DNA from: Promethearchaeota archaeon
Lineage (GTDB): Archaea; Asgardarchaeota; Lokiarchaeia; Sigynarchaeales; SOKP01
Reading direction: 5' to 3'
DNA length: 5,163 bases
Assembly (NCBI GenBank): GCA_016839845.1
Contig: JAEOTL010000470.1
Location: 1-5,163 of the forward strand
Shown: positions 417-5,126 of the stretch, piece by piece
Position numbering within the stretch: position 1 is the first letter of the stretch
Layout of the letters: each line of letters begins with the position of its first letter
Program-made: the position numbers and the translations under genes
Notes under the pieces: generated by a model
Seen by the model: only the letters and a program-made list of their open reading frames with translations
The model's database searches: none
What the model was told of the DNA's origin: nothing

Positions 417-2243
417 TTAATCAATAAAAATTTCTGTAATCAAATTTTCCAAGAAGGGAGCATCTTTTATTTCGACAACTTGATTTGTTTGAGAAAATGT
501 GTTTAATGTCTGCCAAATTTCAGTATTTTCTTTAATACTCTCAGTAAATAGATCGAGTTTCTTTAATGCAAAATATGTCTCACCCTTGTATAAATAACAA
601 ATAAGGAATTCACCAACCGACTGCATTAAGATCATATCTTCACCAAATTTAGCTCTATCAAGGCCTTTAGAGAAAAATTCATCACTAAAAGAATTAAAGG
701 CAGTTAAAAAACTACCAAATATTTCTTCCTCAAATTTCCACTTGGATTCAAAGTGATAAGAGAAGATCATAACACCACCCTCAGCTATAATTAATAGCAT
801 CATAGGTTCCTCAGAAATACCCTCAGGACCTTCTAATGAGCGTTTTATTTTTAAATATTCTATTGTTTCATCCATCGATGCTAATTTTAATCTTTCTGAG
901 ACGGGAGTAGTAGTTTTACGAAGATCTTCCCAAATATCCAGTTGACCTATCAATTTATCATGCTCTCTTGATATCGAGAGTGCCAATTTTTGGAGTCCGT
1001 GTTTATCAGCTATGCTCTGTGCTTCTTTGAGATATCTTCTTGCGTCGATAGTATTCAATTGTATTAGAGCCAACTTGCCTTGTAAAAGCTTTGCTGAAGT
1101 CAAAGTTGTATAGGAATGCTGTTTTTCAGCAATATCCAACAATTGAATAACGAGGGATTCCAATTCTCCCAGAATTTCGGAAGAGTCTGTAATTTGTAGT
1201 TCTAATAAAAGAATATGGCAAAGATCGATAAGAATAGAAGCGGCGATATTTAGATCCCAACCAGGTCCGAATCCATTCCCCATAAATTGTCTCAATATTT
1301 TCTCTGCTTCTGCTAGGTTTTGGATTCGACCAGTCGCTTTTAAAATCCGCGCTTCTGATAATTTCCATGCCCATTCAGCTCCTGGTTTGCCTTTATTATA
1401 ATCTTTAAATAGTTCTAAATATTTCTTGGCCTCATCAAGAGAATTTTTATCAATATATACCTTAATAAGAGATGTATAGACTACATTAGTATAAATTGCA
1501 ATGTCGATTTTACTACTCATTTCCAAGGCTTCTTCTAAAGTCTCAATGGCAAGATCGAATTTTCCCTGGGATAGGTAATTATCTCCCAAATCCCATAGAG
1601 CATATATTTTAGCAACTCTTGTTGAGAGATCTTCGCTTTCTAGAAGGGGAAGACTTTGTAATAGATAATCTTGAGATTTCTTTAATTCACCTTTCACATA
1701 ATAAATCTTCCCAAGTTCCATTAAAACAGTGGGCAACATGGAAGCTAAGCGTCTATCTTTTTTACAGGCATCTAGTGACGTTATACAGTATTCAAGAGCA
1801 AGATCAATATCACCAATATTCCTGTAGATACAAGCTTTTTGGAAATCTATATTCGATGACCTAAACTCAATATCCTCTTTTGGCTCTTGAGATGCATCAT
1901 TGAGTAGATTTTCACTTTCTTCGATAAGCTTCCATAACTCTGGATAGTTAAGATCCCCCAATACCCACTTTATGTAAAATTTAAGACTTAACGCATCTAT
2001 CTGTGATAGAGGTATATTGTTTGTTTTTGCTTTCTCATAAAGCTCATTTACAATTCTCATCGCATCACCAAATGATCCCATAGACAAATAAGTTCTCGCT
2101 TTAACTCCCTCACAAACGAGGTTATCTTTGATAGAAAGGTCTCGATTATTTTGAAGTTCTTCAATTTTTTGAAGAAGTTCTTCTTTCTTTTCCTTGAAGG
2201 ATTCTTCTAGATCGAGCAATTCTTCCATTATTGATAGGGGCAT
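417..2243 (-). CDS. TPR protein with N-terminal coiled coil and C-terminal longin-like domain
   Basis: A 608-residue soluble protein with no signal peptide or membrane segment seen. Residues 6-35 are a Glu/Lys/Leu-rich probable coiled coil. Helical TPR-like repeats follow at about 41-75, 134-167, 170-203, 210-243, 250-283, 291-324 and 376-415. The clearest is 210-243, with the A-L-x-x-L-G-x-x-Y-x-x-x-G-x-x-x-x-A pattern. After a charged linker (about 460-478), residues 479-608 form a different domain. It starts with two hydrophobic strands (482-488 and 491-497), then an amphipathic helix (504-524), further strands (536-552) and a helix (555-582). That order resembles the longin/profilin-like fold, but this is inferred by eye and not from a profile. 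TPRs imply a scaffold or sensor that binds proteins; the partner is unknown. Start: the ATG at 2243 has a weak AAGG 11 bases upstream. Met6 is an alternative with no Shine-Dalgarno sequence. The gene is monocistronic in this view and convergent with the Fe-S gene. Confidence 0.85.
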   Translation of the reverse strand: MPLSIMEELLDLEESFKEKKEELLQKIEELQNNRDLSIKDNLVCEGVKARTYLSMGSFGDAMRIVNELYEKAKTNNIPLSQIDALSLKFYIKWVLGDLNYPELWKLIEESENLLNDASQEPKEDIEFRSSNIDFQKACIYRNIGDIDLALEYCITSLDACKKDRRLASMLPTVLMELGKIYYVKGELKKSQDYLLQSLPLLESEDLSTRVAKIYALWDLGDNYLSQGKFDLAIETLEEALEMSSKIDIAIYTNVVYTSLIKVYIDKNSLDEAKKYLELFKDYNKGKPGAEWAWKLSEARILKATGRIQNLAEAEKILRQFMGNGFGPGWDLNIAASILIDLCHILLLELQITDSSEILGELESLVIQLLDIAEKQHSYTTLTSAKLLQGKLALIQLNTIDARRYLKEAQSIADKHGLQKLALSISREHDKLIGQLDIWEDLRKTTTPVSERLKLASMDETIEYLKIKRSLEGPEGISEEPMMLLIIAEGGVMIFSYHFESKWKFEEEIFGSFLTAFNSFSDEFFSKGLDRAKFGEDMILMQSVGEFLICYLYKGETYFALKKLDLFTESIKENTEIWQTLNTFSQTNQVVEIKDAPFLENLITEIFID

Positions 2244-2438: not shown

Positions 2439-3749
2439 TTAAACGTCTGTATTTTCAATTATCATAGCGGTTCCTTGTCCACCGCCACAACACATCGTAG
2501 CAAGACCATATTTCTGCTTCCTTTCTTTAAGGATTCTTGCTAAGGTTCCAACTATTCTTGGACCTGTTGCTGCTATAGGGTGTCCTATTGCGATTGCTCC
2601 ACCTTTTATATTAATATCATCCATTCGATCATCTAATCCCATCTCGTGGATCCAGTTTAGGCCTACAATAGCAAATGCCTCATTTATTTCAAAGCAGGCA
2701 ATATCGTCGGTTGTTAATCCTGCATGTTTTAATGCCATCCAAGATGCGGGAACTGGGCCTCTTCCCATAACTGTAGGATCAACTGCTCCGAAACCGTTTG
2801 AAACGATACGAGCTAATGGGTCTAAATCGTATTTTTTCATGGCCTCTTCTGACATTAACATTAATGTCGCCGTTCCTGCATTTGTAGGACACGAATTTCC
2901 TGCGGTTATTAATCCCTGTTCTGTACTGAACGTTTCAACATACTCTTCTTTTGTCATAAGCGGTCTATAGTACCCACCAGCCCAACCGGGAGTGCTTAAT
3001 CCCCTTAAATCTTTGGTTCCCTCGTACGTAGCATTCTTTCTAACTGAAGTGTCATATTCGATTAACATTGGTTCATCCTCATCACCTTCCCTATGCCCCA
3101 TTATAGGGACAATCTCATCCTTAAAAAAACCATCTTCTTGAGCTTTTGCAGCTAATTTATGACTTCGAACTGAAAACCTGTCATTGTCTTCTTTTGAAAA
3201 AACATCAGCGTTCATTTCATGGAGTTTTTGAGCCGTTTGTAACATTGAGTACGAGCAACGGAAATCAACAACATCATCAACAAAAAGTTCATGTCCTGGC
3301 TTCATGGCAGGAGGGATTTCCCTTGTTGTTGGCCTTCTATTCGGGTTTCGGGAAATCGTAGCATTATTTTGCCCGGAAGCAATAATAACGTCAGAATATC
3401 CCAATGCAATATTATTATACCCTAAGGAGGCGCAGGTCATTCCTGAACCGCATTGTCTATCTAACGCAACAGACGATACCTTCGCGGGAAATTTAGATAA
3501 AAACAAGGGATATCTCCCACCAAAAGTCACATATTCAAAATTGAAATGAGTAGCTCCGATATAAAACTCATCTACATCTTCAGGTTTTACTTTGTCTTTT
3601 AATCGATTATCGAACATCTCATTTATCGTTAAGGCAGTCATCTCATCGGGGCGTAAATTTCCAAGGACATCTCTTGGGGGTTCTCTTGGTCGAGATCTTG
3701 AAAAAGGAGTTCTTATATAATCTGTAATGTATACATCTCTTATTGTCAT
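2439..3749 (-). CDS. Thiolase (acetyl-CoA C-acyltransferase family), catalytically complete
   Basis: A 436-residue thiolase that should catalyse reversible thiolytic cleavage of 3-oxoacyl-CoA, or the reverse Claisen condensation, in the cytoplasm. All catalytic elements are present: nucleophile C100 in DRQCGSGMTC, NEAFA at 356-360, H390 in GGAIAIGHPIAATG, and C420 in MCCGGGQG. The last two match the classical thiolase signatures exactly. The middle region (about 167-214) has the usual loop-domain sequence ending FFKDEIVP. It is longer than the common 390-400 residues, mainly through an insert at about 252-277 (STPGWAGGY onward). The usual SDG/NDG after TAGN reads NAG (290-292), which is unusual. 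The ATG at 3749 has AGAGGT 9 bases upstream. It follows a paralogous thiolase by 45 bases, so the two are very probably co-transcribed. Chain-length preference and direction (beta-oxidation or biosynthesis) cannot be read from this window. No DUF35 or HMG-CoA synthase gene, the usual partners of archaeal mevalonate thiolases, is present. Confidence 0.93.
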   Translation of the reverse strand: MTIRDVYITDYIRTPFSRSRPREPPRDVLGNLRPDEMTALTINEMFDNRLKDKVKPEDVDEFYIGATHFNFEYVTFGGRYPLFLSKFPAKVSSVALDRQCGSGMTCASLGYNNIALGYSDVIIASGQNNATISRNPNRRPTTREIPPAMKPGHELFVDDVVDFRCSYSMLQTAQKLHEMNADVFSKEDNDRFSVRSHKLAAKAQEDGFFKDEIVPIMGHREGDEDEPMLIEYDTSVRKNATYEGTKDLRGLSTPGWAGGYYRPLMTKEEYVETFSTEQGLITAGNSCPTNAGTATLMLMSEEAMKKYDLDPLARIVSNGFGAVDPTVMGRGPVPASWMALKHAGLTTDDIACFEINEAFAIVGLNWIHEMGLDDRMDDINIKGGAIAIGHPIAATGPRIVGTLARILKERKQKYGLATMCCGGGQGTAMIIENTDV

Positions 3750-3758
3750 ATTTTTTAT

Positions 3759-3764
3759 ACCTCT
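3759..3764 (-). promoter_or_regulatory. Strong Shine-Dalgarno site of the downstream thiolase
   Basis: Minus-strand AGAGGT lies nine bases before the ATG at 3749, in the 45-base gap between the two thiolases. It supports this start and an internal translation start on a shared mRNA. The gap contains no T-tract that would end the upstream transcript. Confidence 0.6.
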
Positions 3765-3794
3765 GTTTATTATTTTTACCTCATTTTTATTTTA

Positions 3795-5126
3795 CTAATC
3801 TAAATTTTCAATTACTACAGCAGTTCCTTGACCGCCTCCACATGACATCGCGGCGAGCCCGTATTTAGCATTTTTCTCTTTGAGAATTCTGGCTAATGTT
3901 GTCGTAATCCTCAGACCTGTCGCTGATATAGGATTCCCTATTGCTAACGCGCCTCCATGAACATTCATTTTATTTTCCCAGTCAATCCCTAATTTATTAG
4001 CAGCATTAATCGCTACAACACTAAAGGATTCGTTTATTTCCCAGAAATCGATATCTTCTGATTTCAAATTTGCATGCTTTAATGCCATTTGAGCTGCCGG
4101 TACTACTCCTCGTCCTTGTACAGTTGGATCCACTCCAGCATACCCAATCGAAATAATTTTCGACATGGGTTTTAATTTGTATTCATCAAGTGCATTTTTC
4201 GAAGCTAAAAGACAAAGAGAAGCTCCATCACTTAATGGAGAGCTATTTCCTGCTGTAATAATACCTTCTTCTGTCCCAAATTTCGTAACATAGGCATCCT
4301 TAGAAATTACTGGATTTCTATATCCACCTGCCCATCCAGGGGTACTTATGGAAGGCATTTTTGCAATATTTTCTAATGTTACCCCTTTTTTAATAGATTG
4401 ATCTGCTCCAATTTCAATTTCGTTCTCAGGATTACCCCGTTCATGACCCTTAAGAGACATAATTTCCTCTTTGAAATACCCATTTTCTAAAGACTTTTCG
4501 GCTAAGTTATAACTACGAATACTAAATTCATCCATATCATCTTTTGAAATATTATCTGCTTCTTCTTCTGCAAGTTTCTGAGCTGCTTGGTATAATAAAC
4601 GACTTGTTTTCCAATCATATAAGTCATCATTATACCACCTATTCTCTGGATCAAGCATAAATTTGTCAGGAGGTATTCCATACACAGTAACTTTTCCATC
4701 ATAGGTATGTAATGGCACTCGAGTAAATTGGTCAAACCCCACTGATGCCACGACATCAGAATAACCCATTGAAATGTTTGCAAAACCAACATGTAGAGTT
4801 GTCATGCCGGACCCATCTTGTCTGTCAAATACCGTTGCAGGCACATGGAAGGGAAATTTCGCCATAAAAATCGGAATCCTTCCCCCAAATGTCCCATGCT
4901 CATGTTGCAGTAAAGCACTGCCAACCAAAACCTCACTAACATCCTCCCGTTTGAGAGAACTTCCGCTGTTTGGTATTCGGTTATCAAACATATCTATCAA
5001 AACATGAGCAACAAATTCTAGTCCCTGTTTCTTACTAAAAACATCATCATCAGGATCTAGTGGATTTGCACGAGAAAATGGTGTCCTCACATGATCTACT
5101 AAATATACTTCTTTTGATTCTTTCAT
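3795..5126 (-). CDS. Thiolase paralogue with all three catalytic residues replaced
   Basis: A 443-residue protein of the thiolase superfamily, alignable along its whole length with the next gene (VRTPFSRA, MFDNR, FGGR, DRQxGSGMT, STPGWAGGY, TAGNS, VDPTVxGRG, KYGLAxM, CGGGQGTA). The nucleophile Cys is Asp104 (GAT, 4815-4817). The His of the GHP motif is Asn398 (AAT, 3933-3935), and the serine of that signature's usual Gly/Ala is S401. The C-terminal catalytic Cys is Ser428 (TCA, 3843-3845), with the neighbouring position being C429. NEAFA reads NESFS (365-369). It therefore cannot perform standard Cys-dependent thiolysis. The frame is open, other motifs are conserved, and TAGN is followed by the canonical SDGA, so it is not a decayed gene. 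Likely roles are a structural or substrate-shaping partner of the active thiolase, an acyl-CoA binding protein, or an enzyme with altered chemistry; none is proven. The start ATG at 5126 has no clear Shine-Dalgarno sequence. The stop is TAG. Confidence 0.9.
   Translation of the reverse strand: MKESKEVYLVDHVRTPFSRANPLDPDDDVFSKKQGLEFVAHVLIDMFDNRIPNSGSSLKREDVSEVLVGSALLQHEHGTFGGRIPIFMAKFPFHVPATVFDRQDGSGMTTLHVGFANISMGYSDVVASVGFDQFTRVPLHTYDGKVTVYGIPPDKFMLDPENRWYNDDLYDWKTSRLLYQAAQKLAEEEADNISKDDMDEFSIRSYNLAEKSLENGYFKEEIMSLKGHERGNPENEIEIGADQSIKKGVTLENIAKMPSISTPGWAGGYRNPVISKDAYVTKFGTEEGIITAGNSSPLSDGASLCLLASKNALDEYKLKPMSKIISIGYAGVDPTVQGRGVVPAAQMALKHANLKSEDIDFWEINESFSVVAINAANKLGIDWENKMNVHGGALAIGNPISATGLRITTTLARILKEKNAKYGLAAMSCGGGQGTAVVIENLD

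Follow-up and report, generated by a model that had tools for sequence, protein, structure and literature searches.

What can a thiolase do once each of the three residues that carry its chemistry has been replaced? The question is raised by one gene in a stretch of 5,163 nucleotides from a Promethearchaeota archaeon (contig JAEOTL010000470.1; hereafter "the window"), which an earlier note on this DNA had singled out from its letters. Here we follow that gene through its homologues, its neighbours and the selection acting on it, and weigh the roles that its product might play.

Residues and selection in the dead thiolase

The gene lies at 3795..5126 on the minus strand (a strand left unstated in the earlier note), and its frame runs from 5126 to 3795, encoding 443 aa with no internal stops, so that the open frame claimed there is confirmed. 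The product contains both Pfam thiolase domains above their cut-offs (Thiolase_N, 89.0 bits against 26.4; Thiolase_C, 123.1 bits against 27) and thus belongs to the Thiolase superfamily; its Pfam matches at E 0.001 are to thiolase models alone, which does not place it in the ketosynthase branch. Where a catalytic thiolase has its nucleophilic Cys, the His of GHP and the Cys of CxGGG, this protein has Asp, Asn and Ser. Specifically, the minus-strand codons read D104 (GAT, 4815..4817), N398 (AAT, 3933..3935) and S428 (TCA, 3843..3845), and in a HMMER alignment these residues face the Cys, His and Ser/Cys column of the solved thiolases 4n45 and 4n44, as the earlier note had proposed from the sequence. 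The Asn365 (AAC, 4032..4034, minus strand) and Glu366 (GAA) of a NEAF-like motif are retained, and G430 is encoded by GGA. An AlphaFold2 model of this catalytically dead protein on alignment A1 was of low confidence (pLDDT 49.1, pTM 0.57).

We aligned 163 rows, comprising the window's two thiolases (this one and an intact neighbour, below), P0001–P0120 and P0241–P0281 (the best 120 matches per search). The dead set consists of 39 rows—the window protein, P0001–P0036, P0241 and P0242, three of them partial and one C-terminally damaged—and none shows a catalytic Cys, His or Cys at any of the three sites, 37 being readable at all three. Position 104 holds D in 32 rows, W in three, S in two, A in one and a gap in one; position 398 holds N in 35, L in two, E in one and Y in one (the damaged row, P0031); position 428 holds S in 33, P in two, A in two, T in one and a gap in one. 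The full catalytic set is present in 122 of the remaining 124 rows, and one of the two exceptions, P0109, differs at its C-terminus. The other, P0058, lies outside the dead clade and retains Cys and His, its last Cys having become Gly. The best named matches of the window are lokiarchaeal (Promethearchaeota) metagenome assemblies, with locus L001 84% identical; the tabulation of homologues suggested in the earlier note found close relatives that also lack Cys/His/Cys.

A careful tree was built from 58 chosen rows with the six catalytic columns excluded. In it the dead clade (19 rows) and the clade of the adjacent live thiolases (14 rows) each received 100/100 and joined as sisters at 100/99, and no single branch separated the four outgroup rows from the rest. 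The same sister relation came out of a faster tree of 86 rows in which the catalytic columns were kept. On these trees, the simplest reading is that the catalytic set was lost once, at the root of the dead clade, and that different branches then filled the three sites differently. As the deep branches read W/N/S, A/E/T and S/L/S, the replacement chemistry is not conserved in the clade, and the conserved D/N/S site that the earlier note had offered as the marker of a functional clade does not hold up, the deep branches varying at 104 (W/A/S) and 398 (E/L). Position 365 is D in six rows, in deep branches, and position 430 varies in five. In the crown, D104 and N398 are fixed: all 31 D-bearing rows in which both sites can be read have N. 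This fixation might reflect a use. Variation at the three sites, anticipated in that note as a possible refutation, is thus seen between the deep branches and not at D and N within the crown; on the alignment, the varied vacated sites would fit a disused active site more than a new fixed chemistry, the invariant D and N of the crown notwithstanding.

Among six loci (the window and its relatives L001–L005; NG86, 15 pairs per gene), dN/dS ranged from 0.117 to 0.200 for the dead gene (dS 0.37–0.96) and from 0.076 to 0.141 for the live gene (dS 0.16–1.14). Both genes are constrained, the dead gene slightly less so, and selection is not relaxed across the gene, a check that had also been suggested beforehand. 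The pair L002:6001-8680 and L003:6001-8681 stands apart, with a dS of 0.16 between the live genes and 0.37 between the dead genes, a contrast absent from the other pairs, and one of the two genes may have undergone gene conversion or recombination. Constraint was also read from 83 reference positions conserved at ≥95% both in 24 live-clade rows and in the 99 remaining catalytic rows. Sixty-eight of them are retained in ≥80% of the 35 dead rows counted (P0025, P0026, P0031, P0036 and P0109 were dropped beforehand). The 15 lost positions comprise 6 of 19 in active-site loops, as we defined them, and 9 of 64 elsewhere, a difference that is not significant (p 0.097) and suggestive at most of a concentration in the loops.

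An intact paralogue and its surroundings

Downstream of the dead gene, on the minus strand too, lies an intact Cys-His-Cys thiolase (2439..3749; 436 aa), a sister paralogue that is 46% identical to the dead protein and that we propose as its catalytic partner; the earlier note did not mention it. Its Cys nucleophile, GHP His and CxGGG Cys are all in place (C100, H390 and C420; codons TGC, CAC and TGT), together with N356. A gap of 45 bases separates the two genes (3750..3794, minus strand), and 37 bases only of window sequence lie upstream of the dead gene. Elsewhere the window encodes a TPR protein (417-2243, minus strand) and, at 2-397 on the plus strand, the final part of a 4Fe-4S protein that resembles electron-transfer subunits of DMSO-reductase-type enzymes at scores below NCBIfam cut-offs. 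Promoter- and terminator-like sites showed no excess over shuffled sequence.

In all six sequences with continuing DNA, the live gene comes next after the dead one on the same strand, at gaps of 45 (window), 40, 40, 41, 42 and 46 bases (L001–L005, in order). A further sequence, L006, stops within its dead gene, whose product matches the window's dead protein at 81% identity over 246 residues and is outside the residue table. Because the strand is shared and the gaps are 40–46 bases, the two genes are probably co-transcribed. In a survey of 227 genomes of the phylum, with up to seven candidates scored per genome, the dead clade was present in six (E ≤ 1e-145) and the live clade in five (E ≤ 1e-150). 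All five are among the dead-clade six, all with the genes adjacent, and the contig of the sixth genome ends within the dead gene. Eight hit pairs sit on contigs of exactly equal size, including the deep branches P0035/P0037 and P0242/P0048, and one hit pair carries the tags LCGC14_1293860 and LCGC14_1293850. No live partner was seen for the W/N/S rows (P0032–P0034), neighbours being visible for a minority of hits beyond the loci. Distances among the dead proteins track those among the live ones (14 pairs, r 0.954, a value reached in 0 of 5000 permutations), though this correlation and the co-occurrence could also arise from plain linkage. In sequence, a live/dead heterodimer would be recognized by two linked, selectively constrained paralogues of which one has lost its catalytic residues, a pattern found here. 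AlphaFold2 on a dead–live read-through chain gave a low-confidence model (pLDDT 54.0, pTM 0.43) from the shallow alignment A5, which contains live-clade rows only and has a depth of 2 over the dead half.

An enoyl-CoA hydratase gene lies directly upstream of the pair in five of the six loci and is absent there in L005. The genes around the pair in relatives encode MFE-2-type hydratases, short-chain dehydrogenases, a further Cys-His-Cys thiolase, an AMP-binding enzyme, molybdopterin oxidoreductases with 4Fe-4S proteins, an esterase and a BaiCD-like flavoenzyme (below its cut-off), with a 3-hydroxyacyl-CoA dehydrogenase near the pair in L073. Judged by gene content, these surroundings look like a beta-oxidation cluster, perhaps one for branched or cyclic acids. 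The wider cluster in L070–L073 combines peroxisomal-type (MFE-2-like) hydratases, the BaiCD-like flavoenzyme and molybdopterin oxidoreductases with a sulfatase and alkyl-sulfatase-like proteins, a combination which hints that complex lipids are broken down anaerobically. Between two hydratase genes of the beta-oxidation cluster in L005 lies a leucine-rich-repeat protein (2815-4716) that weakly matches a TIR domain.

Possible roles of the dead protein

We favor, at a probability of roughly 0.7, a reading in which the dead protein would be the non-catalytic subunit of a heteromeric beta-oxidation thiolase, as PqsB is within PqsBC. Because an intact twin adjoins it wherever the DNA can be read, the dead protein probably forms the inactive half of an enzyme made of two parts. 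Tree and adjacency suggest that the two genes arose by tandem duplication from one ancestral lokiarchaeal thiolase. One copy (2439-3749) would have retained Cys-His-Cys and would perform the thiolase reaction, the family's established chemistry; the other, to go by the tree and the residue table, lost its catalytic residues before the clade diversified and stayed under purifying selection. By analogy with PqsB, the dead protein may stand in for one protomer of the two-fold thiolase dimer and may shape or stabilize the live site, perhaps through a wider acyl pocket or the docking of neighbouring beta-oxidation enzymes, and we infer that the two proteins physically associate. The earlier note had held that selection keeps the protein for a non-thiolytic role, either as a partner subunit or with different chemistry. 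Purifying selection and the pairing with an intact paralogue leave the partner-subunit half of that claim well supported; the different-chemistry half is not supported.

Different chemistry would make the dead protein an enzyme of its own, with D104 and N398 serving as base, acid or nucleophile in a new acyl-CoA reaction (e.g., retro-aldol cleavage, hydrolysis or decarboxylation). The constant company of N with D across the crown is in keeping with such a site, but the deep branches A/E/T and S/L/S (with a live twin on an equal-size contig) and W/N/S, the change of N365 to D and the variable G430 all speak for an active site that is not maintained, and we regard the proposal as unlikely. Moreover, the Tyr motif YDxF of Ltp2/Sal-type aldolases is absent from the dead protein, which reads NESF in what we take to be the same place in the fold, and motifs of the [ND]Exx type occur clade-wide. 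Cys-less thiolase-fold aldolases are indeed known, namely Ltp2, with YDHF, and Sal, with YDCY (available text of PMC12329534), yet it is on this motif that the likeness to Ltp2 drawn in the earlier note fails, and no DUF35 domain was found in the 30 neighbour proteins scanned (Pfam, E 1e-5 or 1e-8; neighbours only).

The dead protein might instead be a non-catalytic acyl-CoA-binding scaffold or regulator that works with other enzymes of the cluster, such as the upstream enoyl-CoA hydratase, and not as the live thiolase's protomer. The position of that hydratase gene in five of six loci and the retention of most conserved thiolase positions would suit such a role; however, the live thiolase is the tighter neighbour (six of six, at 40–46 bases) and the closest paralogue, and the hydratase is missing upstream in L005, all of which makes the scaffold improbable. 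A decaying gene copy or a sequencing error, for which the damaged row P0031 might be cited, we reject as very improbable: frames are open in the window and L001–L005, dN/dS is far below 1, and the catalytic residues are absent clade-wide, with the same residues recurring in many clusters from several sources. Sequencing error in particular, already judged unlikely in the earlier note, is excluded because 0 of 39 clade rows show catalytic residues and dN/dS is 0.12–0.20.

The two-subunit arrangement that we prefer may have a second occurrence. Among about 60 thiolase ORFs in the loci examined, L021 and L031 (records named Jordarchaeia) each have one with Gly, His and Ala at the three sites (L021:5064-6281 and L031:5731-6897; also L076), in both cases downstream of a Cys-His-Cys thiolase. 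A homologue search and tree set these apart as a clade of their own (10 full and 2 partial rows of 126; SH-aLRT 100), sister to a Cys-His-Cys group and not to the adjoining gene. The clade occurs in 3 of 227 genomes (82–100% identity; 35 genomes pass E 1e-110), and in all three the gene adjoins another thiolase on the same strand, at ~627, ~290 and ~198 bases by match ends; the adjoining thiolase has its Cys residues in three of three, its His not being read in the third. This second dead clade retains His and is less changed, and its gaps are wider than those of the lokiarchaeal pair. We consider it an even bet that Asgard archaea evolved heteromeric beta-oxidation thiolases of live and dead thiolase at least twice, by tandem duplication in Lokiarchaeia (D/N/S, W/N/S, A/E/T, S/L/S) and in the jordarchaeial Gly/His/Ala pair. 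A live/dead pair would also call for caution when Asgard metabolism is reconstructed, as automatic annotation (for example "acetyl-CoA C-acyltransferase") counts the dead member as an enzyme.

Comparison with known two-subunit and Cys-less systems

To our knowledge, thiolases are homomeric as a rule. In the ketosynthase branch, the chain length factor is a non-catalytic protein that sets chain length. The comparisons that follow draw on those portions of the sources that were available to us, one of which describes thiolases as dimers or tetramers (PMC3406046). Among the literature matches listed (titles and abstract starts, with most subscription literature outside), there was no printed example of a thiolase with a dead thiolase subunit. 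The live/dead subunit design is known from the ketosynthase branch, and within the literature searched what appears to be new here is its occurrence in the thiolase family.

Several systems share one part of the picture. Like the window protein, Ltp2, Sal and TbSLP have a thiolase fold and make no use of the thiolase cysteine pair, but Ltp2 and Sal are Tyr-motif aldolases with a DUF35 partner, and the window protein shows neither in the regions examined (PMC12329534). MsTLP1 also has a thiolase fold in which the catalytic residues are not conserved, and it lacks thiolase activity; however, it is a monomer with an extra C-terminal domain, for which the dead thiolase leaves no room (443 aa, with Thiolase_C extending to residue 440), and a live twin is not among its features as described in that source (PMC3406046). 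BktB/PhaA of Haloferax mediterranei is, like the putative complex here, an archaeal two-subunit thiolase, its genes cotranscribed, but its second subunit is an OB-type protein and not a thiolase, and its live residues are Ser-His-His (PMC7137286). BbsCD, as far as the available account goes, is a heterotetramer that includes inactive pseudoenzyme subunits and acts in an anaerobic beta-oxidation-like pathway, though it is a short-chain dehydrogenase of another fold.

The closest likenesses lie in the ketosynthase branch. Ketosynthase–chain length factor pairs such as ApeO-ApeC are heterodimers of two thiolase-fold proteins from one locus, but they are elongating ketosynthases, and ApeC has a single thiolase-fold domain (PMC8358021). 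PqsB lacks all three catalytic residues, and the PqsBC heterodimer mimics the FabH homodimer, with a cavity that extends into PqsB (PMC4807248). As in FabH-like PqsBC, where PqsB replaces one protomer of the homodimer, the pair described here combines one live and one dead subunit of thiolase fold; unlike PqsBC, which belongs to the ketosynthase III branch and to quinolone synthesis, it consists of Pfam thiolases in a beta-oxidation cluster, and their complex is a putative one. If this reading is true, the pair would show that the heteromeric solution of the ketosynthase branch arose among true thiolases too, and would lend itself to working out what the dead protomer adds across the two-fold interface. 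It would be a thiolase counterpart of PqsBC and of the ketosynthase–chain length factor pairs, in which the dead half sets which substrates fit.
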